This document shows positions 5,314-19,206 of a stretch of DNA of 64,000 nt, in pieces (within the stretch, counting starts at the first letter, position 1; each line of letters starts with the position of its first letter). This DNA comes from Maribacter luteus. Lineage in GTDB: Bacteria > Bacteroidota > Bacteroidia > Flavobacteriales > Flavobacteriaceae. A program made the translations under genes and the position numbers. A model generated the notes under the pieces. The model had not been told where the DNA came from. It saw nothing but the letters and a program-made list of their open reading frames with translations, and did no database searches. Location: positions 434,001 to 498,000 of the forward strand of contig NZ_WKJH01000002.1 in the NCBI RefSeq assembly GCF_009674825.1. Direction: 5' to 3'.

Positions 5314-5712
5314 TCATAGTTTCTTTACATACCCGAAGACCATCTTTTTGAATTCTTTGATGTCATTTTCGAAAAGAACCATACTGTCATGCAATCTTCT
5401 GTGCTCTTCCCTATATTCCCCATCGGAAATTCCCTTTTCCCCTCTCTCTAAACGAGCCAATAGATTTTCATGTCTTTTTATATCTTCGGTCAGGTAATCG
5501 AATAGGTTTTCGTGCACTTTATCCAGATGGTTCAACATTCGTCCATATTCCGACTTTTTAACTTCCCGCTTATCGAGGATTGTGGCAAAAAACTTGACTT
5601 CATCCCTCCAAAAATCAACAGTATCCAACCATTCTCGACTTTCTTGATGTAATACAGTAAGACTTGCACCCAACAATAATTCTGTTTTGGGATTTGATAT
5701 AATCGTATTCAT
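5314..5712 (-). CDS. Hypothetical helical protein (132 aa)
   Basis: Start chosen at the ATG giving MNTIISNPKTE. The longer frame upstream to 5832 would run through the -7 and palindrome region and is unlikely. The protein is predicted almost wholly alpha-helical and highly charged, with many Glu/Lys/His residues (YLTEDIKRHENLLARLERGEK), and may form a helical bundle. No catalytic motif or named family is recognised. A perfect TAnnTTTG box for this strand lies at 5814-5821 (CAAACGTA on the plus strand). Neighbours in the stress block suggest a stress-related protein, but that is inference only. Confidence 0.7.
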   Translation of the reverse strand: MNTIISNPKTELLLGASLTVLHQESREWLDTVDFWRDEVKFFATILDKREVKKSEYGRMLNHLDKVHENLFDYLTEDIKRHENLLARLERGEKGISDGEYREEHRRLHDSMVLFENDIKEFKKMVFGYVKKL

Positions 5713-5832
5713 GGTAATTAATTTTAATATCGCAATCAGTGTTTTTTCGCTACCACAAAAATGCGAACTTACACTTGGTCGCAAAATGATCTGCATCAGG
5801 CTGTGGGTCTTTACAAACGTAATTAACATCAA

Positions 5833-5875
5833 TGATACATATCATTGTCGAAACAATCACAACAGGGTATTTTTA
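5833..5875 (+). promoter_or_regulatory. Crp/FNR-like site plus -7 box before the LigD-type polymerase
   Basis: Palindrome TGATACATATCA (5833-5844, arms extend to AATGAT/ATCATT) followed by TATTTTTA at 5868-5875, 7 of 8 matches to TAnnTTTG. The centre-to-centre distance is 33 bp, which places the site near -41, the position of a class II Crp/FNR activator. The same geometry recurs at three other genes in this block. Confidence 0.55.
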
Positions 5876-5973
5876 CCTACTTTTTTTGCTCTCTTTAGAA
5901 CATAAGCAGATTTTACTTAACGTCGATAATTGAGGATAAAAATCAAAATATACGGTCCCAAACTATTAAAAGC

Positions 5974-6867
5974 ATGGTATTTTCAGAAACAGGCTATAAG
6001 GACAAAGTTTTCTTTCCGAAATCCGGCATTACGAAAAGAGAGCTGATCCAATACTACGAACGTATAGCTCCCTTTATGCTCCCTTACCTAATAGATCGGC
6101 CATTGACCTTGCATCGTTTCCCTGATGGCATAGCACAAAAAGGGTTCTTTCAAAAACATGCCTCGGATTATTTTCCCGATTGGATAAAAACCGTGAAGAT
6201 CAAAAAGAAAGATGGTTGGGTAAACCATGTTCTTTGTAATGACCAAGACACCCTGACGTATTTGGCCTACCAAGGCACTATAAGTTTTCATATTACCTTA
6301 AGTAGATTGGGCAAGCTTGACTACCCGGACAGATTGATTTTTGACCTTGACCCTTCGGGAAATGATTTTGAACAAGTAATGAATGGTGCACAGGTTCTTA
6401 GAAAATTGTTGGGCGAAACCCTAAACCTCCCAACCTATTTTATGCTAACGGGATCCAAAGGAGTGCATGTGGTAGTTCCTTTGATGTGTGTTGAAAATTT
6501 TGATGAAGTTCGTGCCTTTACAAAACAAATAGCGTTTTATTTGGCAGAAAAGTATCCTGAAGACTTCACCATTGCCATGAGAAAAGACCAACGCCAAGGG
6601 CGATTATTTATAGATTACCTCCGAAATTCCTATGCACAAACCGCTATATGTCCTTTTTCAGTACGTGCTTTTGAAAATGCCCCTATAGCCCTCCCGGTTT
6701 CATGGGCCGAATTACAAGTAATAAAAAGCTCCCAAGCTTTTACCATCAAATCCATTTTTAAAAGAATTATGAAAGTCGAAGACCCTTGGAAAGACTTTCA
6801 ACAAAATGCAGTGATCTTGAGCAGTCCCAAAAAGAAAATGCAGAATCTGATTGGGACCGAGGATTAA
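5974..6867 (+). CDS. LigD-type DNA polymerase/primase domain protein (stand-alone PolDom)
   Basis: A 297-aa archaeo-eukaryotic-primase-like polymerase of the kind found as the polymerase part of LigD in bacterial non-homologous end joining. Visible signatures are the N-terminal ITKRELIQYYERIAPFMLPYL, the RPLTLHRFPDG loop, FFQKH, the catalytic metal pair in FDLDPS (Asp124/Asp126), TGSKGVHVVVPL, and FIDYLRNSYAQTAICPFSVRA. No ATP-dependent ligase or 3'-phosphoesterase domain is fused, and no Ku or ligase gene lies in this window. It may act with partners encoded elsewhere, or as a separate repair primase. Its promoter carries a Crp/FNR-like site, which suggests induction under stress or stationary phase. 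Confidence 0.88.
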   Translation: MVFSETGYKDKVFFPKSGITKRELIQYYERIAPFMLPYLIDRPLTLHRFPDGIAQKGFFQKHASDYFPDWIKTVKIKKKDGWVNHVLCNDQDTLTYLAYQGTISFHITLSRLGKLDYPDRLIFDLDPSGNDFEQVMNGAQVLRKLLGETLNLPTYFMLTGSKGVHVVVPLMCVENFDEVRAFTKQIAFYLAEKYPEDFTIAMRKDQRQGRLFIDYLRNSYAQTAICPFSVRAFENAPIALPVSWAELQVIKSSQAFTIKSIFKRIMKVEDPWKDFQQNAVILSSPKKKMQNLIGTED

Positions 6868-6877
6868 AGGCTTTTTA

Positions 6878-7375
6878 CTATAAGATCCTATTTGGATTAA
6901 CATTAAAATATTTTGTGTGATCTTCTTTTGTAACCCATGTTTTACATAAAAGAAGAAACCTACCCTCGGCTAATTTAGTTATGGCCAGGGTAGTTTCATT
7001 ATCATTGAGCCCCAAGCCCCTTAGAATACCATAAATCCCCTCGGACATTGCCCCAAGTTTTTTCCCGTCAACTTCTTGTAAAAACACCGGCGAATATGGT
7101 CCGGCGACAAAAACAGTTCCGATATCTTGATTAAAGAATAATCCGAATAGAGCCTTTGGCCCCAATAAGTTCTTCCAATAATCCTTGAATCCAGGTCTCA
7201 ACACCTCTAAATCCCCTTCCCCTTGGTAATATTTCCCAAGTTTGAACATTACGGTCAATTGGGTATTCCTTGAATTTTCCTGTATGAATTCAACCCATTT
7301 TTCAACATGTGATAATTGGGCGGTTGTTTTAAAGAAAATAGAGGGTTTATCTTTTTCAATAGTCTTCGATATCAT
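6878..7375 (-). CDS. Hypothetical stress-block protein (165 aa)
   Basis: A cytosolic-looking 165-aa protein. The N-terminal half is polar; a hydrophobic Gly-rich segment follows (ALFGLFFNQDIGTVFVAGP), and the C-terminal part (ILRGLGLNDNETTLAITKLAEGRFLLLC) loosely resembles the end of general-stress proteins of the YflT/DUF1269 type, where a short helix is followed by a strand ending in LLLV. The resemblance is weak, so no family is assigned. The gene is convergent with the LigD-type polymerase gene. A Crp/FNR-like palindrome with a correctly placed -7 box lies 50-100 bp upstream on its strand. Confidence 0.7.
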   Translation of the reverse strand: MISKTIEKDKPSIFFKTTAQLSHVEKWVEFIQENSRNTQLTVMFKLGKYYQGEGDLEVLRPGFKDYWKNLLGPKALFGLFFNQDIGTVFVAGPYSPVFLQEVDGKKLGAMSEGIYGILRGLGLNDNETTLAITKLAEGRFLLLCKTWVTKEDHTKYFNVNPNRIL

Positions 7376-7430
7376 AATCCGTACATAATAATATTCTAGG
7401 TAAAAAGAGACAATCTACCTTGTCCGGGCA

Positions 7431-7473
7431 TGAATGTAGCCCTAAACACAAATTGTTGAAATGATATACATCA
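7431..7473 (-). promoter_or_regulatory. Crp/FNR-like site plus -7 box before the 165-aa stress-block gene
   Basis: TGATATACATCA at 7462-7473 and, reading the minus strand, TACATTCA (7431-7438), 6 of 8 matches to TAnnTTTG. The centre-to-centre spacing is 33 bp, the same as at the other three sites of this block. The site lies between the 165-aa gene and the divergent kinase gene, so it could also act on the latter. Confidence 0.45.
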
Positions 7474-7620
7474 ATCCGGAATGATAATATCAAAATTTAT
7501 ACGACTATTTCTCAAGCCTCCCGTTTTATCAAGCCTAAATTCGATATGATAAATGTCATTTGAAAAAACATGTTGGTGATTTATATTTAAATTTAGTCGA
7601 CCAAGCATCAATGATCCATA

Positions 7621-10600
7621 ATGAAAAACACCTTGAAAGACCTTACCCTTTTTGAACGAATATTCGATATTTCCCTCGAAGGCATTCTCGTAGTTGACCA
7701 AAACGAAAAAATCATTAAAGTAAACTCAGCCTGTGAAGAGATGTTCGGCTATGACCATAATGAACTACTGGGTAAAAAAATCGAGGTCTTACTCCCACAG
7801 AAATTCAGAAAAGCCCACAAAACACACTTTTTAGAATTTACAAAAAAGCCCATAAAACGACCTATTGATCATGAAATGGACCTATGGGGTATAAAGAAAG
7901 ATGCAACTGAATTCCCATTGAAAATTAGTCTGAATCCTGTATCATTCAATGATGAACAAGTAACCATCGCCTTTATTAGGGATACTATAAACAAAAAAAA
8001 AACAGAACATAAACTAAAAGCCAAAGAAGCCAAGAACAAAGCCCTTTTAAATGCCTTACCAGATATTACGGTTATACAGGATTACGAAGGAAACATCGTT
8101 GATTTCTTCGCTCCCGAAGAGACTGTGGTAAAAGTTGATAAATCGGAAATCATAGGTAAGAACATAAAGGAAATAGTTCCTCCGGAAATATCGGAAAAGA
8201 TACTGAAAACCCATAACGAGGCTATTAGAACCAAGAAAATCCAAATAAGGGAATATTCCTTGAAACTAGATGGCAAGATGGTTGATTTTGAGTCTAGGAC
8301 CGTTCTGCTAAATGGAAATAAGCTATTGACAATCGTACGCGATATTACCTCCAAGAAAAGAGCCGAAGAAGAATTGAAAAACAGTGAGGCCAAAAACAGG
8401 TCGATTTTGGAAGCACTGCCCGATCTTATTTTCGTACATGATAAAATGGGCAACATTCTTCAGGTGAACGCTTCTGATTTTTCCCCCATAGTTGGGCCTA
8501 TAGAGAGTCTTATAGGCAAGAATTTCAAAGACATTTTACCCCCAAAGACCAGCGTCTTGATTTTAAATGCCCTTACAGAGGTGCAGGAAACCAAAAACAC
8601 GGTTTTAAAGATCATTACCTTACCTATTGATGATGTCCCTACCGATTTTGAAATACGCTTCGTACCTCTTGATAACGAGACCTTCCTATGCGTTTTACGT
8701 GATATTACCAAGACCAAGGCCATACAAGATGTATTGAATATCCGCAACAGTGCTTTGGAAGCTGCCCGTAACAGTATCATCATCGTAAATGCCCAACTAC
8801 CGGACCTCCCCGTTATTTATTGCAATGATGCATTCTGTTCCCTTACAGGATATGACCGTAGCGAGGTTTTAGGTAAAAATTGTCGGTTTTTACAAAAAGA
8901 TGATCGGGAGCAAGAAGGGGTCAAAATCATAAGAAAGGCCATTGAAGCCCAAGAAACGGCCCAGACCGTACTACGCAATTACAAAAAGGACGGCACACTT
9001 TTTTACAACGAACTTACTATTACGCCCGTTCGAAACCAAAATGGCCAATTGACGCATTTTATAGGCGTCCAGAACAATGTGACCGAACGTATCAGGGAAG
9101 TGCAGATAAAAGATCAGATACGCCAGGTACTCGAGAGGATCGCCAAACAAGATTCCATAGAAGAAATAAGCAAAACGATCGTTGGGGTACTTGAGAGTAA
9201 TTTACCTTGCTGTGTTGCCACGATCTATGCATTGGATCCCAAAAAGAAAACACTACATAAAATGGCGGCACCCAACCTTCCCAAAGGCTTTTGCGACATC
9301 ATCGAAGATGTTCCCATAGGACCGGATATGGGTTCTTGCGGGATTGCGGCCTATTTAAAAAAGGAAGTGATCATTACCGATCTAACCACCAACCCTCTTT
9401 GGAAAGAGTACAACGCCGCAGCACTTGAACACGGACTGAATTCATGTTGGGCCTATCCCATATTTTCATCTGACCAAAAAGTATTGGGCATATTCGGTGT
9501 GTACTGTAAAAAACCAAAAAAACCGAATAAAGCCGATAGGGATATTATTACTGATTTAACCCAACTGATCAGCATTGCATTTGAAGAACACCAAACCCGT
9601 CAACAATTGGCAAAAAGCCATTGGTTATTGGAAGATTATGCCAAAGAGCTCGAGCAAACCGTTAATGAACGTACCAATGAGTTGAAGGCAACTGTTCAAA
9701 AAATGGTGGAAGCCAACCTTAACCTTGAAGACCAGATCAAGGAAACCAAAGCTGCGGAGAACAGGGCACTGGAGAGTCAGGCCATGTTTACGGCCATAGC
9801 AAAAAATTTTCCCAAAGGGGTCATAATCGTTTTTAACAGTGCTTTTGAAATCGTTTATATAGATGGAGGGGAAATGCATAGGATGGGAATGGACAAAAAT
9901 AGATTTGAAGGAAAATGCATTGATGATATCGATATTTTCTCCAAACAACGCCTACACCGTGTCAAAGAAGATATAAAAAGGACTATAGGAGGTGAGTTCC
10001 TTTCTTTTGAAACCCGGTTCAGGAATAAGTATTTTACCGTAAATACCTCTCCTCTGATGGATGGAAACGATGAAGCTAAATGGACCCTTTTTGTTTACAA
10101 CGATATTACCAAACTTAAGCAAGCAGAAACCGAAATGCGCAAGGCACTCGTACGAGAGCAAGAGCTCAACGAGTTGAAATCGCGCTTTATATCAATGGCT
10201 TCACACGAATTCAGGACCCCACTAAGTGCCATTCACTCTTCGGCCATACTTATTGAAAAACAGAATATGCCGGGCAAAGAGGCCAAGCGGGAAAAATATG
10301 TAAAACAGATCAAACAAAATGTAAAGGCCTTAGTAGTGATCCTAAACGATTTTCTCTCTTTGGGCAAATTAGAGGAAGGCCGGGTACGACCCAATCCCGA
10401 AATCATGGACTTGGTTTCTTTCACTAAAAATATCGTAACGGAATTTGAACCCAACCGAAAAAGAGGGCAACATATCAAGGTTCATACAAATGAAAAACCC
10501 ATAGAGGCTTATCTCGACCCTAAACTCATGCACCATATACTGACCAATCTATTAAGTAATGCCATTAAATACTCGACAGAAGGACAAGAAATATTGGTGA

Positions 10601-10863
10601 CCCTGACCAAAGAAAAAGAAAAGGTGACCATACAAGTTTTGGATCATGGTATTGGTATTCCCAAAGAGGAACAGGACCAGCTCTTCCAAAGGTTCTTCAG
10701 AGCGCAGAACAGTACAAACATTCAAGGAACGGGGCTCGGTCTTAACATCGTAAAACAATACACCGAATTAATGGGCGGAACGATCGGGTTGGACAGCGAG
10801 CAAGACAAAGGCGCCACATTCTGGGTTACTTTTAAAACAAAAAAACATCGAGAACTCCTGTAA
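7621..10863 (+). CDS. LOV/multi-PAS-GAF sensor histidine kinase
   Basis: A 1080-aa protein with no transmembrane segment, so a cytosolic kinase. Domains in order: PAS (~12-125), PAS (~138-250), PAS (~255-370), LOV-type PAS (~378-492), GAF (~500-665), coiled coil, PAS (~725-840), HisKA with the phospho-acceptor His862 in MASHEFRTP, and HATPase (NLLSNAIKYS, DHGIGIP, GTGLGLNIV). The fourth PAS contains GKNCRFLQ with Cys421, the flavin-adduct cysteine of LOV photoreceptors, plus NYKKDGTLFYNELTI and THFIGVQNNVT, which match the rest of a LOV domain. It probably senses blue light together with redox or ligand signals and passes phosphate to the Crp-type response regulator encoded next. No receiver domain is fused. 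Confidence 0.92.
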   Translation: MKNTLKDLTLFERIFDISLEGILVVDQNEKIIKVNSACEEMFGYDHNELLGKKIEVLLPQKFRKAHKTHFLEFTKKPIKRPIDHEMDLWGIKKDATEFPLKISLNPVSFNDEQVTIAFIRDTINKKKTEHKLKAKEAKNKALLNALPDITVIQDYEGNIVDFFAPEETVVKVDKSEIIGKNIKEIVPPEISEKILKTHNEAIRTKKIQIREYSLKLDGKMVDFESRTVLLNGNKLLTIVRDITSKKRAEEELKNSEAKNRSILEALPDLIFVHDKMGNILQVNASDFSPIVGPIESLIGKNFKDILPPKTSVLILNALTEVQETKNTVLKIITLPIDDVPTDFEIRFVPLDNETFLCVLRDITKTKAIQDVLNIRNSALEAARNSIIIVNAQLPDLPVIYCNDAFCSLTGYDRSEVLGKNCRFLQKDDREQEGVKIIRKAIEAQETAQTVLRNYKKDGTLFYNELTITPVRNQNGQLTHFIGVQNNVTERIREVQIKDQIRQVLERIAKQDSIEEISKTIVGVLESNLPCCVATIYALDPKKKTLHKMAAPNLPKGFCDIIEDVPIGPDMGSCGIAAYLKKEVIITDLTTNPLWKEYNAAALEHGLNSCWAYPIFSSDQKVLGIFGVYCKKPKKPNKADRDIITDLTQLISIAFEEHQTRQQLAKSHWLLEDYAKELEQTVNERTNELKATVQKMVEANLNLEDQIKETKAAENRALESQAMFTAIAKNFPKGVIIVFNSAFEIVYIDGGEMHRMGMDKNRFEGKCIDDIDIFSKQRLHRVKEDIKRTIGGEFLSFETRFRNKYFTVNTSPLMDGNDEAKWTLFVYNDITKLKQAETEMRKALVREQELNELKSRFISMASHEFRTPLSAIHSSAILIEKQNMPGKEAKREKYVKQIKQNVKALVVILNDFLSLGKLEEGRVRPNPEIMDLVSFTKNIVTEFEPNRKRGQHIKVHTNEKPIEAYLDPKLMHHILTNLLSNAIKYSTEGQEILVTLTKEKEKVTIQVLDHGIGIPKEEQDQLFQRFFRAQNSTNIQGTGLGLNIVKQYTELMGGTIGLDSEQDKGATFWVTFKTKKHRELL

Positions 10864-11036
10864 ATAATTAAGTCAACATAACACGAATAGCAATGATATA
10901 AGAAAAAACCAAGATACATAGGCCTTAAACATCAATAACAAGAATGCGAAGGCCCATAAAATGAACTGAACAAGGTCTATCCTACTTTAGGCTTTTACCG
11001 TAAGATTGTACACTAACAATGTAACCCTGAAAAGCC

Positions 11037-12107
11037 ATGAAAAAAATACTATTGATCGAAGACAACAAAGATGTTCGCGAGAACACGGCGGATATTCTTG
11101 AACTTCATAACTTTGAAGTACTTACCGCAGAAAATGGTCTTACAGGTATAGAAATGGCCAAAAAGCACCTACCCGATCTTATCCTCTGTGATATTATGAT
11201 GCCCTTAAAAGATGGATATGATGTGCTGGAAGACCTTGGCAATACAACGAAAACAAAAGGGATACCTTTTATCTTCCTAACGGCAAAATCCGATCGCACC
11301 GATTTTAGAAAAGGAATGAATCTTGGTGCTGACGATTACCTTACCAAACCCTTCGAAGAACACGAACTGATCGAGGCCATTAAAACGCGTGTCAGGAAAA
11401 ATGATTTTCTAAGAAAAGAATTTTCCAAGAACATTGAGGGTATCAACGAATTTTTCCAAGAAGCCTACAATTATTTGAACTTGGAACATATCGAAAAAGA
11501 ATATCGCCCCAAACTGTTTGACAAAAAAGATTTCATTTTTAGGGAAGGGGATGGTGCCCATACCCTGTTTTTCATTGAAAAGGGCAGTGTAAAGACCTAT
11601 AAATCGACCGAATCCGGTAAGGAATTCGTTACGGGCATACATAAAGTCGGCGATTTCGTAGGGCAGTTATCCTTATTGAACCCTGAGGGAACCTACTTGG
11701 AAACAGCCGTAGCAATTGATAATACCGAGGCCTATGCGATTCCTAAATCGGATTTTATCCATCTGATCAATGACAACAAGGACGTTTCCCATAAATTCAT
11801 GGATATCATTTCGACCAACCTGATCGAGGTTCAGGACCAACTGGTTAATATGGCCTATTCTACCGTACGACAACGTGTGGCTAAAGCACTTTTAAGCCTA
11901 CACAAGAAAGGGGTTATAAAAGACTCGTATTATGAAGGATTGGATATACCTAGGGAAGACTTTGCCGGTATGATCGGTACGGCCACGGAAACCGCCATAC
12001 GAACATTGTCAGATTTTAGGGAAGAAGGACTAATTACCATGGGGCATGCCAGAAGAATAATGCTTTTGGACAAAGAGCGTTTACAAAATATCGCTGACAA
12101 TTTTTAA
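11037..12107 (+). CDS. Response regulator fused to cNMP-binding and Crp-type HTH domains
   Basis: A 356-aa transcription factor with three parts: a CheY-like receiver (residues 1-125; phospho-acceptor Asp52 in ILCDIMMP, conserved TKPFEE), a cyclic-nucleotide-binding-like beta barrel (~145-275; LFFIEKGSVKTYK, KVGDFVGQLSLL), and a Crp-type winged helix (~285-350; IPREDFAGMIGTATETAIRTLSDF). It lies 173 nt after the LOV kinase gene on the same strand, so the two are a likely sensor-regulator pair. The Crp HTH predicts binding to TGAnn-type palindromes, and four such sites sit before neighbouring genes at a fixed distance from the -7 box. Whether the barrel binds a nucleotide is unknown; I see no clear full cAMP phosphate-binding cassette. 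Confidence 0.9.
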   Translation: MKKILLIEDNKDVRENTADILELHNFEVLTAENGLTGIEMAKKHLPDLILCDIMMPLKDGYDVLEDLGNTTKTKGIPFIFLTAKSDRTDFRKGMNLGADDYLTKPFEEHELIEAIKTRVRKNDFLRKEFSKNIEGINEFFQEAYNYLNLEHIEKEYRPKLFDKKDFIFREGDGAHTLFFIEKGSVKTYKSTESGKEFVTGIHKVGDFVGQLSLLNPEGTYLETAVAIDNTEAYAIPKSDFIHLINDNKDVSHKFMDIISTNLIEVQDQLVNMAYSTVRQRVAKALLSLHKKGVIKDSYYEGLDIPREDFAGMIGTATETAIRTLSDFREEGLITMGHARRIMLLDKERLQNIADNF

Positions 12108-12212
12108 AAAACAGGGGAGGCAATTTCGAGGACCAAGACCCCAATAGTATCCCCATAAAGAATTCCCAATTGGATAATTCACACTATGTTTTTATGAAGT
12201 TCTTTAAACGAA

Positions 12213-12282
12213 AAAGCCCTAAGGCCAAACCTAATCACATGGACGTATTTTCGGTTAAGGCGAAAGGGCTTTGCGTTTTTCG
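12213..12282. terminator. Probable bidirectional terminator between the Crp-type regulator and hsp20
   Basis: AAAGCCCT (12214-12221) pairs with AGGGCTTT (12266-12273), with A/T tracts on both outer sides and additional pairing inside. It lies between two convergent genes and can serve both. Confidence 0.5.
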
Positions 12283-12289
12283 ATGGTCT

Positions 12290-12754
12290 TTAGGCTATCT
12301 CTACCACTTTTGGTGGTTTTTTCTTAGCCTCTTCCTTTTTCATTAGATCAAAACTTAGTATACCATCATTATACCTGGCTTTGATTGCTTCTTCTTTTAC
12401 ACTTTTGGGTAATTGCAATGAACGCTCAAAAGCATTATAGCTGAATTCACGACGGGAATAGTTTTCTTCTTTTTCTTCTTCTGATTTCGTTTTTTCAGCA
12501 GAAATGTTCAAGCAACCATCTTCTATGGTTATTTCAAAATCTTTCTTGGCGAAACCGGGTGCAGCAAGCTCAATTTCAAACTTATCCTCGGTCTCTTTAA
12601 TGTTTAACGCAGGTTCGGTGGTTTTGCCATTCCAGAAGGTGTCGGGCAACATATCCCTGACCCAAGAACGATTATCGAAAAAATCATCCATGTCAAAGAA
12701 ATCATGTCCTACAAGATTTCCGAAAGGCCTTCTTTTAAATTTTACAAGTGACAT
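12290..12754 (-). CDS. Small heat-shock protein, Hsp20/alpha-crystallin family
   Basis: A 154-aa ATP-independent holdase that binds unfolding proteins in the cytosol. The N-terminal region ends in the FDMDDFFDNRSWVRDM segment, the alpha-crystallin domain spans about residues 45-140 (PALNIKETEDKFEIELAAPGF, SYNAFERSLQLPKSV, IKARYNDGILSFDLMKKE), and the C-terminus is short and basic. Length and motifs are typical for the family. It is convergent with the Crp-type regulator gene and divergent from the MacA-like gene. The promoter carries the palindrome TGACCTAGGTCA placed as an activator site, which suggests control by the local Crp-type regulator. Confidence 0.95.
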   Translation of the reverse strand: MSLVKFKRRPFGNLVGHDFFDMDDFFDNRSWVRDMLPDTFWNGKTTEPALNIKETEDKFEIELAAPGFAKKDFEITIEDGCLNISAEKTKSEEEKEENYSRREFSYNAFERSLQLPKSVKEEAIKARYNDGILSFDLMKKEEAKKKPPKVVEIA

Positions 12755-12798
12755 AACAATGTGTAATTAGGTTAAACAATCCTTTTTTTTATTCGGGG

Positions 12799-12841
12799 CT
12801 AAATTAAGTAGGCCTTCGCCCTTTCTAAATGACCTAGGTCA
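12799..12841 (-). promoter_or_regulatory. Crp/FNR-like palindrome plus -7 box before hsp20
   Basis: Perfect palindrome ATGACCTAGGTCAT (12829-12842; core TGAC-N4-GTCA) and, on the minus strand, TAATTTAG (12799-12806), 7 of 8 matches to TAnnTTTG. Core-centre to box-centre distance is 33 bp. The arms are TGAC/GTCA rather than the TGAT/ATCA seen at the sister sites. Confidence 0.55.
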
Positions 12842-12888
12842 TGACTTCGTTATTTTTTGACCCCTTATCGGCCAACCTATTTCCCTAC

Positions 12889-12931
12889 TGATATAAATCA
12901 TTAGGATTATGGGTATTACACCCTAATTTTA
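12889..12931 (+). promoter_or_regulatory. Crp/FNR-like site plus -7 box before the MacA-like gene
   Basis: TGATATAAATCA (12889-12900) and TAATTTTA (12924-12931; 7 of 8 to TAnnTTTG) with centres 33 bp apart. The adaptor gene starts 33 nt after the box. Confidence 0.55.
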
Positions 12932-12964: not shown

Positions 12965-14182
12965 ATGAAAAAATACAAATGGGTGGTTATCGTGATTTTG
13001 GCTATCGCCGTTATAGGCTATCTGTTTTTAAGGCCTAAACTCAGCACAAAAAAACTGGATTTCAACTATACACTTTTGGAAAAAGGTAATATTGAGGCCG
13101 ATGTATCAAGCACTGGTACTGTGGAAGCCATAAATACGGTAGAAATAGGCACCCAAATCTCGGGAACCATAAAAAAGATATATGTGGATTATAATGATAA
13201 GGTCAAAGCCGGACAGATATTGGCGGAGATGGACCTAAAACTGTTAAGTACCAGCCTTACCAGTGCAAAAGCCAATTTAGGGGTTAGCGAGGCCCAATTA
13301 TACCAAGCCAAGGATGAGTTCGACCGTAACAAGTCACTCTATGAAAAAAACGTCATTTCCACCAAAGAATTCAACGATTCCAAATATTCCTACAACCAAG
13401 CATTGAGTTCACAAAAAGCCGCCAAAGCTGCGGTGGAAAATATTGAAGTGAGCATTGGATATGCCCACATTACCTCCCCAATAGATGGTACCGTAATTGA
13501 ACGTAGCGTGGAGGAAGGGCAAACCGTAGCCGCTTCATTCGCCACACCGACCATGTTCATTATTGCCGAAGACCTATCGAAAATGCAGATCCTGGCAGAT
13601 ATGGATGAAAGTGACATCGGATACATCAAAAACCAGATGCAAGTGCGCTTTACCGTACAGACCTATCCCGATAAACAATTTTATGGCTCGGTAAGTCAGA
13701 TAAGACTACAACCCATAGAGATAAACAATGTGGTCAACTACCAAGTAGTGGTCGATGTAGACAATGAAAAAGGGTTGTTGTTACCAGGTATGACCGCTAA
13801 TCTGGAGTTCATCATAAATGCCGCCAAGGATGTGATCTTGATCAACAATTCAGCATTACGCTTCCGACCAAACGAAACCATGTTGAAAGAAATAAAACCT
13901 ATTTTGGAAAACAAGGCCCAAACCGTGCTTCCCGATTCCATAAAAAACAAGTTCATCAATACCATCAATCACGAAGAACTTTATACTCCGGCCAATTTCA
14001 AGAAAACTTTGCCTTCGCACATAGATGGTTATTTCTTTAAGGATAACCAGGGTAAGTTAGATTTCCGATTTATTGAAATAGGAATCAAATCTGGCATCTA
14101 TTCAGAGATCAAACGCCATTTAGATGGTTCCCCTGTAACGGAAAACACAAGGGTCATCAACGGAATAAAAACAAAAAAATAA
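12965..14182 (+). CDS. macA: MacA-like periplasmic adaptor (HlyD/MFP family)
   Basis: A 405-aa membrane-fusion protein with one N-terminal anchor (residues 5-22, VVIVILAIAVIGYLFL). The lipoyl halves lie around 60-90 (GTVEAINTVEIGTQISGTI, YNDKVKAGQILAEMD) and 165-200 (ITSPIDGTVIERSVEEGQTV), separated by the alpha hairpin; a beta-barrel follows. It links an inner-membrane MacB-type ABC transporter to an outer-membrane channel. The C-terminal part (about 310-390) has an insertion not usual in E. coli MacA. It is first of a three-gene operon with the ATPase and permease, 5 nt from the next gene. No TolC-like gene is present here. Confidence 0.87.
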   Translation: MKKYKWVVIVILAIAVIGYLFLRPKLSTKKLDFNYTLLEKGNIEADVSSTGTVEAINTVEIGTQISGTIKKIYVDYNDKVKAGQILAEMDLKLLSTSLTSAKANLGVSEAQLYQAKDEFDRNKSLYEKNVISTKEFNDSKYSYNQALSSQKAAKAAVENIEVSIGYAHITSPIDGTVIERSVEEGQTVAASFATPTMFIIAEDLSKMQILADMDESDIGYIKNQMQVRFTVQTYPDKQFYGSVSQIRLQPIEINNVVNYQVVVDVDNEKGLLLPGMTANLEFIINAAKDVILINNSALRFRPNETMLKEIKPILENKAQTVLPDSIKNKFINTINHEELYTPANFKKTLPSHIDGYFFKDNQGKLDFRFIEIGIKSGIYSEIKRHLDGSPVTENTRVINGIKTKK

Positions 14183-14187
14183 AAGAT

Positions 14188-14937
14188 ATGCCCCTTAAAA
14201 AAGTCATAGAGACTAAACAACTTGGCCGCATATTCAAAAACGGCGAAATAGAAGTGCGTGCGCTCACCGATATAGATTTGGTCATTGAAGAAGGTGAGTT
14301 CGTGGCCATAATGGGTGCATCGGGATCGGGCAAATCAACCTTACTCCATATTATCGGTTGTTTGGATAGGCCTACCTCAGGTGAGTACTATTTGGACGGT
14401 GTCGACGTCAATGGATTGAATAAAAACCAATTGGCCGATATACGAAATCAAAAAATCGGATTCATATTCCAAAGTTATAACCTGTTATCGCGTACCACGG
14501 CCTTGGAAAATGTAGAACTTCCCCTCATTTATAACAGGACCGGACAATTTACAAATTCGAAAGAGCTTGCCCAAAAAGCATTGGAACAAGTGGGATTGGC
14601 CGATCGTATTTACCATAGAACAAATGAGCTTTCGGGAGGTCAACAACAACGGGTGGCCATAGCACGGGCTTTGGTAAACAATCCTGCACTTATACTTGCG
14701 GATGAGCCTACCGGAAATTTGGATAGTACCACCAGTATTGAAATAGCTGACCTTTTTGTACAATTGAACAATGAAGGCAAGACCATACTCATGATCACCC
14801 ATGAGCCGGATATTGCCCAGTTCGCGAAACGAATGGTCTATTTAAGGGATGGCCGCGTACTTACCGATTCCTTAATCGAAGACAGGAGTACAAAAGAATC
14901 GGCCATTAAGGCATTGGAAAATCCGGTAACTACCTAA
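14188..14937 (+). CDS. ABC transporter ATP-binding protein, MacB/LolD type
   Basis: A 249-aa ATPase with Walker A GASGSGKST, Q-loop FIFQSYNLL, signature LSGGQQQRVAIARAL, Walker B LILADEPTGNLD and the switch His in MITHEPD. The sequence is closest to the MacB/LolD group, which drives mechanotransmission rather than direct transport across the inner membrane. In this operon the ATPase is a separate protein from the permease, while in E. coli MacB they are fused. It starts 5 nt after the adaptor gene, and the permease gene follows directly. Confidence 0.93.
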   Translation: MPLKKVIETKQLGRIFKNGEIEVRALTDIDLVIEEGEFVAIMGASGSGKSTLLHIIGCLDRPTSGEYYLDGVDVNGLNKNQLADIRNQKIGFIFQSYNLLSRTTALENVELPLIYNRTGQFTNSKELAQKALEQVGLADRIYHRTNELSGGQQQRVAIARALVNNPALILADEPTGNLDSTTSIEIADLFVQLNNEGKTILMITHEPDIAQFAKRMVYLRDGRVLTDSLIEDRSTKESAIKALENPVTT

Positions 14938-14946
14938 TTGGGCATT

Positions 14947-16161
14947 ATGAGAAGATTCCTAAAAATATTCAAGGTCGCTTTCCATTCCATTTATAAAAAT
15001 AGGACACGTAGCCTACTGACCATGCTGGGCATCATCATTGGGGTAGGTGCGGTCATCATGACCATTTCAGCAGGTGAAGGGGCCACTATGGCGGTAGAGA
15101 ACCAAATTTCGGGATTAGGCACAAATTTATTGATGATCCAAACGAAATCGGAGCATAAAGCCGGAATCAACGTTCGCATGGGCAGACCCATGGACAAGAA
15201 AGATTTTGATGTACTGCAGAAAAACTCCGTGTACATGCCCAATCTCTCCCCCCTCTTGGCCATTGGGGCACAAGCCATTGGTCCCAGCGGATATAAATCT
15301 ACAATGGTATATGGTGTTTCCTATGACTATTTTTATATAACCAGTCGAGAGCTACAGGCAGGTAATTTCTTTACCGAGGAAGACGTACGTACCGCAAAAA
15401 AATATTGCGTTATCGGAGAGACCATTCGAGAAGAACTTTTTCCAGGGCAAGATCCCATAGGTAGACAAATTCGCATAGATAAGGTCCCTTTTACCGTTAT
15501 GGGACTTTTGACCGAAGAAGGTACCGGTGGCATGCAGGATATGGACGATATTATCCTGGCACCATACACGACCATACAAAATAGACTCTATGGTCACCAT
15601 AGAGGTTATACCATGATCATGGCCAGCGCCTTGAGTGAAGACCATATAACCAATGCCAAGGTTGAGGCTACCGAACTATTGCGCGAATCACATCGGATCA
15701 AAGATGGGGAAGAAGATGATTTCGAGATCATGACCCAAATTGAACTTCAGGAAATCACAGGAAATATCACGGGTATCTTAACCATTCTATTGGGCGCCAT
15801 TGCCAGTATCTCCTTGATCGTCGGCGGTATCGGAATTATGAACATCATGTTGGTCTCGGTAACCGAGCGTACACGGGAAATTGGAACCCGACTGGCCATT
15901 GGGGCAAGGGAAAGTGATATTCTTACCCAGTTTTTGATTGAAGCTATAGTATTGAGTTTAGTAGGTGGATTGCTGGGAATCGTTTTTGGTGTCATCGGAA
16001 ACCAGATAATCTATAAAGTGACCGATTTCTTCATTCCAACGGCCTTTTACTCTATCGCCATTGGTTTTGGATTCGCAGCCTTGGTAGGTGTGGCATTTGG
16101 ATACTTCCCAGCAAAAAAAGCAGCGAAACTAAACCCAATCGATGCTTTGCGATATGAATAA
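14947..16161 (+). CDS. MacB-type ABC permease (FtsX fold)
   Basis: A 404-aa permease counted from the ATG at 14947; the frame opens at a TTG at 14938 directly after the ATPase stop. An N-terminal membrane helix (SLLTMLGIIIGVGAVIMTISAG) is followed by a large periplasmic domain, then three helices in the C-terminal FtsX domain with the typical GGIGIMNIMLVSVTERTREIGTRLAIGA motif and the ending AAKLNPIDALRYE. With the adaptor and ATPase it makes a MacAB-like tripartite exporter for macrolides, peptides or envelope components. The substrate cannot be inferred. The promoter of the operon carries a Crp/FNR-like site. Confidence 0.93.
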   Translation: MRRFLKIFKVAFHSIYKNRTRSLLTMLGIIIGVGAVIMTISAGEGATMAVENQISGLGTNLLMIQTKSEHKAGINVRMGRPMDKKDFDVLQKNSVYMPNLSPLLAIGAQAIGPSGYKSTMVYGVSYDYFYITSRELQAGNFFTEEDVRTAKKYCVIGETIREELFPGQDPIGRQIRIDKVPFTVMGLLTEEGTGGMQDMDDIILAPYTTIQNRLYGHHRGYTMIMASALSEDHITNAKVEATELLRESHRIKDGEEDDFEIMTQIELQEITGNITGILTILLGAIASISLIVGGIGIMNIMLVSVTERTREIGTRLAIGARESDILTQFLIEAIVLSLVGGLLGIVFGVIGNQIIYKVTDFFIPTAFYSIAIGFGFAALVGVAFGYFPAKKAAKLNPIDALRYE

Positions 16162-18595: not shown

Positions 18596-18897
18596 CAAGG
18601 GGTATACGTCACTACTGCCCATATGAAAATATAGGGCTCCTCAACGGTTAGGGTATTACCTTTAACCTTCATTATTCCCTAATTAAATATAAAACCACTG
18701 CCCGACCATTTAGGGACTTTTGGAGTTCTTGAGCGTATCATTCAATCACCAAACTATTTCCGGAAAAATAGGATTTGCACAATTAAGGAATCAAGGGTAA
18801 TTGAAGCCCAGAACATTCATTGATCAAATAAGCTAATCCCCATATTCATTGGTGCCGACTTTTATCAACCCTAACCACATTTAAAAATTTTTTAAAA

Positions 18898-18907
18898 CAA
18901 CCGTTTG
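18898..18907 (+). promoter_or_regulatory. LacI-type operator, distal site before susC
   Basis: CAACCGTTTG follows the LacI-family form CAAnCGnTTG. It lies about 310 bp upstream of the promoter-proximal site, a distance compatible with looping. It is one base away from the three identical sites at 19207, 35744 and 42848. Confidence 0.4.
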
Positions 18908-19206
18908 TGAACAAAACAAACCACTAAAACTATTTAAAAACAATAATAGCCCCATTAATCAGCAAACATAAATCGAAAATGCAATTTTCATCATAGAACC
19001 CCAATTATCAAAAATACACTACAACACACCTACATACTACACTATTTACCACATATTTAAAACACACTATTCTTAAATCTCTATACACATTAAAGGGACA
19101 ACACTGCCGCAAACACATATGATCAAAGAAGAAAAAAGCCTATCCACACCTTAATACAAAAAACGCATTGTAAACATATTTTATTGATTTTAGTAAATTA
19201 TTAACA

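Follow-up and report, generated by a model that had tools for sequence, protein, structure and literature searches.

A Crp-type protein and its LOV-domain kinase probably switch on stress genes alongside low-oxygen genes in marine flavobacteria

Promoters and genes at the locus

The 64,000-nucleotide stretch of Maribacter luteus DNA analysed here, called the window (contig NZ_WKJH01000002.1, positions 434,001 to 498,000; G000:C15:434001-498000 in our numbering, in a genome of 4.65 Mb), encodes a protein with a receiver, a cNMP-binding-like domain and a Crp-type helix-turn-helix (HTH), hereafter regulator A, preceded by a LOV-domain sensor kinase and flanked by Crp/Fnr-like palindromes at a fixed distance from −7 boxes (Table 1). 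This palindrome stretch forms the end of a stress island at C15:421-447 kb. Pfam matches from C15:420 kb to the window comprise three Usp proteins, TerB, an M50-CBS protease, PfkB, a carboxymuconolactone decarboxylase and FtsH, together with a dienelactone-hydrolase-like protein adjoining a phosphoribosyltransferase, and the window itself adds a cation P-type ATPase, ABC1, the LigD polymerase, Hsp20 and a MacA-like protein.

An earlier note, made from the letters of the window, had reported four palindromes 33 bp from a TAnnTTTG-like box, at 5833, 7462, 12830 and 12889. All four are present at the positions and on the strands it gave, at exactly 33.0 bp, where spacing is measured from palindrome centre to box centre and box matches are scored out of six against TAnnTTTG. 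Two further sites are absent from its list: one at 7547, which precedes the sensor kinase, and one at 5787, which precedes the gene at 5314-5712 and is intergenic only if that gene is given its ATG start at 5712, the mechanical list of open reading frames having a TTG start at 5832. The window contains nine TGAYN4RTCA sites, and the six intergenic ones (5.7-12.9 kb) all have a box, five matching at 5/6 and one at 4/6; the three intragenic sites (13833, 19941 and 44109) reach at most 3/6 at the 33-bp spacing. A 5/6 box stands at this spacing in 5 of 18 readings, compared with a mean of 0.22 and a maximum of 3 at other gaps, and none of 300 first-order Markov simulations reached five such boxes. 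The spacing is confirmed as a real, shared feature of the window, which the earlier note understated.

Table 1 Sites, genes and domains of the palindrome stretch, with members of a small helical protein family. Positions are those of the window unless a locus is named; sites carry scores from the class matrices described in the text.
Feature	Position	Strand	Details
Palindrome TGATGCAGATCA (minus reading)	5787..5798	-	Box CATTTTTG at 5756-5763, 33.0 bp, 5/6; island-like, score +11.3
Palindrome TGATACATATCA	5833..5844	+	Box TATTTTTA at 5868-5875, 33.0 bp, 5/6; upstream of LigD polymerase; score -1.2, ambiguous
Palindrome TGATGTATATCA (minus reading)	7462..7473	-	Box TACATTCA at 7431-7438, 33.0 bp, only 4/6; upstream of 165-amino-acid gene; score +11.7
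Palindrome TGATAAATGTCA	7547..7558	+	Box TATATTTA at 7582-7589, 33.0 bp, 5/6; FNR-like, score -6.8
Palindrome TGACCTAGGTCA	12830..12841	-	Box TAATTTAG at 12799-12806, 33.0 bp, 5/6; upstream of hsp20; score +10.9
Palindrome TGATATAAATCA	12889..12900	+	Box TAATTTTA at 12924-12931, 33.0 bp, 5/6; upstream of macA-like operon; score +7.1
132-amino-acid helical protein	5314..5712	-	No Pfam or NCBIfam match; 15-24% identity to five own-genome members
LigD-type primase-polymerase	5974..6867	+	PF21686, E 1.8e-87
165-amino-acid protein, no family assigned	6878..7375	-	No Pfam match at 0.001
Sensor histidine kinase (PAS, LOV, GAF, HisKA, HATPase)	7621..10863	+	Pfam; LOV by PDB matches
LOV domain of kinase, GKNCRFLQ	8746..9090	+	PDB 9vf7, E 1.8e-33; 1n9l, E 6.5e-28
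Regulator A (receiver, cNMP-binding-like domain, Crp-type HTH)	11037..12107	+	PF00072, PF00027, PF13545
Hsp20	12290..12754	-	PF00011, E 2.5e-24
macAB-like export operon	12965..16161	+	HlyD_D23; MacB-like match 8e-69, under NCBIfam cut-off
Small helical family members	window:5314-5712; L017:13822-14214; L019:6659-7102, 8147-8578, 18714-19166; L020:776-1225		

The genome scan for the palindrome at a fixed box distance that the earlier note had proposed gave a peak at a gap of 23 nucleotides. When the full TANNTTTG box was required and the gap allowed to vary from 8 to 38, the genome yielded 45 matches and the reversed pattern 7; the 23-nucleotide gap accounts for 25 of these 45, and every other gap occurs at most three times. 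Once the gap is fixed (TGAYN4RTCA-N23-TANNTT), there are 67 occurrences compared with 5 for the reversed control, and 17 of the 67 fall within C15:420-450 kb, the right end of which is the palindrome stretch of the window. A predicted start codon often lies 12-50 bp downstream of the box in the stretches fetched, with exceptions. The same promoter form is found upstream of microaerobic genes, namely those for a copper-type P-ATPase, a cytochrome c and a ferredoxin, hemN, whose match exceeds the NCBIfam cut-off, and the small open reading frame leading into the cbb3 operon, and the geometry is widespread in the family, with at least one promoter in 114 and in 122 of 149 genomes for the two spacer types tested. 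The sites share the arrangement of a Crp/Fnr class II regulon, with TGA-N6-TCA as a twofold palindrome and a constant spacing to the −7 box; they would be class II activator sites for dimers of this family, and the 33-bp distance fits a placement near −41, class II palindromes being centred near −41.5 from the transcription start.

A further cluster of sites was observed at G000:C27:95-111 kb (L031), together with two Usp-like genes, acetate kinase, an MlaE permease and a second hsp20.

Conservation and two classes of site

Scanning named genomes yielded 64 loci, 45 of which, at 51% identity or more, were classed as regulator A orthologs, the nearest being those of Maribacter species with 84-85% protein identity; 10 of the other 19 were used as loci of regulator B, a second protein of the same architecture, and 9 were set aside. 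The match of L120 was only partial. The 45 A loci contain 334 palindromes with a 5/6 box at the 23-nucleotide gap, whereas other gaps average 7.7 and do not exceed 16. Retention was then counted gene by gene, with genes having less than 150 bp upstream or less than 30% identity dropped and a 4/6 box accepted. Sites are kept upstream of Hsp20 (35/36), orf165 (21/24), orf130 (15/17), M50 (6/6) and Usp3 (6/7), and, in few close relatives, of LigD (4/4) and MacA (2/2, among loci holding macA), as well as of CMD (2/2), orf74 (2/2) and orf88 (1/1). Retention is lower for the kinase (23/40), orf132 (11/26), the P-ATPase (10/18), PfkB (4/10) and Usp2 (3/7). Internal control genes gave zero throughout (ExoIII 0/20, ABC1 0/9, MacB 0/6, GalK 0/2), as did orf96 (0/1), DLH (0/1), orf68 (0/2) and FtsH (0/1). 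The sites are therefore conserved in relatives upstream of orthologous genes, the absence of which the earlier note had named as grounds for abandoning its proposal, and the shared regulon that it put forward is supported both by this conservation and by the genome-wide spacing peak. The regulon is real, and it is larger and better conserved than could be known from the window alone.

Only 4 of 50 regulator-matching genes have a site upstream, all four in loci where no adjacent kinase was found. These are the Maribacter loci L095, L096, L113 and L116, in which the site stands directly before the regulator gene. It was also observed that the −7 boxes of hsp20 in A loci and other genomes often read TANTTTAG or TANTTTCG and not TAnnTTTG, possibly a promoter variant.

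Within this common geometry the palindromes differ at their centre. Island sites tend to carry a central pyrimidine-purine step (CTAG-like), whereas promoters of the FNR/cbb3 type favour AAAT or AATT. In the M. luteus genome the pyrimidine-purine centre is present in 15 of 17 island sites and in 14 of 50 elsewhere. Across the A loci, with 4/6 boxes accepted in these per-gene counts, it is found at Hsp20 (35/35), orf130 (15/15), the P-ATPase (10/10), orf165 (19/21), orf132 (12/14) and LigD (4/5), at Usp3 in 3 of 6 sites, at the regulator gene in 0 of 4 and at the kinase in 1 of 23. Since the island-type centre is missing from 22 of 23 kinase sites, it appears doubtful that A simply regulates the operon that encodes it and its kinase. 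Among 23-nucleotide-gap sites the centre occurs in 9 of 41 in FNR neighbourhoods (taken as the 30 best loci from a search of 60 genomes; 20 matches at 5/6 were reached at one further gap there) and in 3 of 25 in B neighbourhoods.

Weight matrices were built from the Hsp20, orf130 and P-ATPase sites on the one hand and from the FNR-neighbourhood sites on the other, and they separate every left-out member of their classes (38/38 and 35/35). In the M. luteus genome they score the sites at 7462, 12830, 12889 and 5787 as island-like, that at 5833 as ambiguous, and those of the kinase, hemN, the ccoNO operon and ferredoxin as FNR-like; the second hsp20 (C27:111215), which lies outside the island, scores island-like at +20.8.

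The island class of promoter follows regulator A. When 149 genomes of the family were split at E 1e-100, 11 had A (the weakest match at 1.8e-111, the strongest match outside the group at 5.0e-86), and CTAG-like promoters (TGAYSTANRTCAT-N22-TANNTT) were found in 10 of these 11 (46 sites) compared with 15 of the 138 others (21 sites), the reversed pattern giving 7 matches in all. Of the 46 sites in A genomes, 31 share a contig with A and lie less than 40 kb from it. The predicted co-occurrence of sites and Crp-type regulator is in this sense borne out, with exceptions. In a separate comparison at Hsp20, covering 30 genomes selected from the 149 (10 with A and 20 without, one of the latter unmatched) and using the best locus per genome plus a second locus of G129, an N-Y-A-N centre was present in 10 of 10 sites of A genomes (representing 9 genomes) compared with 4 of 12 in genomes without A, at the same spacing; site and spacing persist in 12 of the 19 genomes that lack A. 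The pattern suggests that the regulator has changed while the promoter geometry stayed fixed.

Six small helical proteins of 130-150 amino acids, 15-24% identical to the first, mostly have a Crp/Fnr-type site just upstream. The members scanned have no Pfam or NCBIfam match, and the orf130 model, a three-helix bundle with a mean predicted local distance difference test score (pLDDT) of 87.8, matches no PDB entry at an E value of 0.001 or below; these proteins are possibly a new regulon-linked family. A fold search with the model of the 165-amino-acid protein (mean pLDDT 83.5) likewise gave no PDB match at that threshold.

Candidate regulators and alternative explanations

The Crp-type HTH family has seven matches in the genome, five of them above the cut-off, and three of the encoded proteins are candidates for these sites: regulator A; regulator B (C6:346-347 kb), which is 46% identical to A and has a PAS kinase; and an FNR-like protein that adjoins the cbb3 operon. 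Regulator B and its kinase lie amid several Usp-like genes with such sites (G000:C6:333-354 kb; L019, L020). The three differ little in their recognition helices (TATETAIR for A, MATETLIR for B and TATESAIR for FNR), and half-sites therefore cannot separate them; the centre of the palindrome, unlike the half-sites, can do so in part.

All 39 A proteins compared retain the receiver aspartate, and in A and B taken together the lysine is kept in 44 of 44 and the hydroxyl position is threonine in 38 and serine in 6 of 44, which identifies A as a response regulator. An FNR-type N-terminal [4Fe-4S] cysteine cluster was found in none of the A proteins, which have one to three cysteines in total and the receiver at the N-terminus, and A was for this reason rejected as an FNR. 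In cyclic AMP (cAMP)-dependent members of the family, GE and RT/RS are the residues that contact cAMP; in an alignment to solved CRP-family proteins they read GQ and LE in A, and control by cAMP-CRP was rejected as the pocket is not kept.

The kinase adjoining A contains a LOV domain that the earlier note had missed. A region spanning residues 378-495 or so matches PDB structures of LOV photoreceptors and includes the photoactive cysteine, within GKNCRFLQ; the protein thus combines a LOV fold with the adduct-forming cysteine of a LOV photoreceptor kinase. Of the 38 kinases found adjoining A, 34 retain the cysteine, and a LOV domain was not found in the four kinases adjoining B. Conservation of this cysteine together with the receiver aspartate makes light or flavin redox state a likely input to the kinase, to which its PAS and GAF domains may add others.

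Taken as a whole, the data are best explained by A acting as the activator of the island through class II sites and the FNR-like protein acting on microaerobic genes, a reading to which we assign a probability of about 0.6; the Crp-type protein and its LOV-domain kinase would then probably switch on stress- or dormancy-like genes alongside low-oxygen genes in marine flavobacteria. At least two Crp/Fnr-family regulators would share the promoter geometry. The LOV/PAS/GAF histidine kinase probably phosphorylates the receiver of A, and phosphorylated A would activate Usp, Hsp20 and the 165-amino-acid protein, and probably the LigD polymerase and macAB, through sites with the central pyrimidine-purine step, of which ATGACCTAGGTCATTT would be the best form. 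Sites resembling TGACAAATATCATA would serve the FNR-like protein in driving microaerobic genes such as those of the cbb3 oxidase and hemN. In a cascade, this protein may also drive the kinase-regulator operon, alone or jointly, as well as some island genes (those for M50, PfkB and one Usp). The receiver-Crp protein, which the earlier note had called the natural regulator, is in agreement with this the best candidate for control of the island, at about three in five, and CTAG-like promoters track it; however, FNR and B share its helix and geometry and are serious rivals or partners.

Several observations weigh against this reading. Cross-binding is likely, given the near-identical recognition helices. 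The pyrimidine-purine centre is present in only 201 of the 334 gap-23 sites of A loci, and there it is absent at M50 (0/6), PfkB (0/4), Usp2 (0/3) and MacA (0/2). The FNR training set of the matrices is mostly one divergent promoter, its uniformity being inflated by shared ancestry; in the M. luteus genome the matrices score 10 of 15 island sites as island-like but also 12 of 39 elsewhere, and across genomes the kinase site is mixed, 7 being island-like and 9 FNR-like. The co-occurrence of A with CTAG-like promoters (Fisher p 3e-8) is uncorrected for relatedness. Genome G032, of the same genus, has no close A match and retains a CTAC centre at Hsp20, and genome G054, which has A, lacks a site at its best Hsp20 locus and has no CTAG-like promoter. 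Finally, 4 of the 38 A-adjacent kinases are without LOV (that of L067, at a contig start, is maybe cut), and 7 of the 45 A loci have no adjacent kinase by the rule used, which also gave none in 6 of 10 B loci.

The strongest rival holds that a single oxygen-sensing FNR-like protein controls all sites, that A acts elsewhere or only modulates, and that the spacers differ because of promoter strength or local history. The geometry common to the cbb3, hemN and island promoters would fit such an arrangement, as would the likeness of the recognition helix of A to that of FNR and the persistence of the Hsp20 site where A is missing; the differences in centre and flanks between the two classes, and the tracking of A by CTAG-like promoters, are not in agreement with it, and we consider it unlikely. 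Control of the island by B, or by B and A interchangeably, is less probable still. B is widespread, resembles A, has its own kinase and has Usp genes with sites in its neighbourhood; its loci hold 25 sites at the same gap compared with a mean of 1.2 at other gaps, and such promoters are present even in the majority of the 138 genomes that lack a close match to A; however, the scarcity of the island-type centre around B does not lend support for this suggestion. Coincidental spacing in an AT-rich genome, to which the weakness of individual sites such as the 4/6 box at 7462 might point, is rejected, as the genome-wide and cross-genome peak at one gap, the gene-by-gene retention and the Markov simulations all contradict it.

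Relation to known systems

DosS is a GAF-containing kinase, as is the kinase here, and DosR has an HTH of NarL/LuxR type, not Crp type. The DosR/DosST system of Mycobacterium tuberculosis resembles the present one in being a two-component system and in sharing, at the level of families only, Usp, Hsp20, PfkB, an M50 protease and a phosphoribosyltransferase, the DosR table of PMC5309233 including the Usp Rv2623, alpha-crystallin, PfkB, the Rip3 metalloprotease and a phosphoribosyltransferase. It is unlike it in that the regulator here is a receiver-cNMP-Crp protein (HTH PF13545), the kinase has a LOV domain and the sites are single class II palindromes. The suggestion of a dormancy or stress regulon comparable to that of DosR is strengthened by the gene families that overlap with that table, and does not extend to the type of regulator.

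The microaerobic regulons of FNR and Anr likewise have Crp/Fnr palindromes upstream of cbb3 oxidase, hemN and Usp genes, and differ from the island in the centre and flanks of the sites and in their regulator, A having a receiver and no FNR cysteine cluster.

LOV kinases that feed a stress response are known from Brucella (LOVHK) and Caulobacter (LovK), where the route is sigma-factor partner switching. Brucella LOVHK feeds the general stress response via PhyR (PMC4438053) and Caulobacter LovK is a LOV kinase feeding a stress response (PMC4844311); the shared element is the LOV kinase, and the difference is that these act via PhyR/LovR, whereas the likely partner here is a DNA-binding receiver-Crp activator. 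Among the open-access matches listed (the best 15 of 9,338, the best 15 of 45 and the best 10 of 236 for some topics), which covered Bacteroidetes FNR regulons, LOV kinases with a Crp-type partner, receiver-cNMP-Crp outputs and LOV stress control in Flavobacteriia, no title or abstract start describes this system, which may be in print, and a paper on CRP/FNR evolution (PMC12531629) contains none of the terms sought for it.

A more far-reaching proposal, which we regard as tentative, is that in marine Flavobacteriaceae a LOV kinase responding to blue light or flavin redox state and a phosphorylatable Crp-type regulator run a DosR-like dormancy regulon that uses the promoter geometry of FNR and is told from that of FNR only by the centre and flanks of its palindromes, and that the regulator operon is itself under FNR-type control, so that the whole would act as a coincidence switch for low oxygen and light. 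For Bacteroidota, a phylum that has promoter boxes of its own, the present analysis provides a directly testable genome-wide map of a regulon of Crp/Fnr activators, and it offers a case of paralogous regulators with common half-sites and geometry whose promoters differ in the palindrome centre. It further suggests that a dormancy gene set of the DosR type is also run by a two-component system of another DNA-binding family, with a possible light or flavin-redox sensor.

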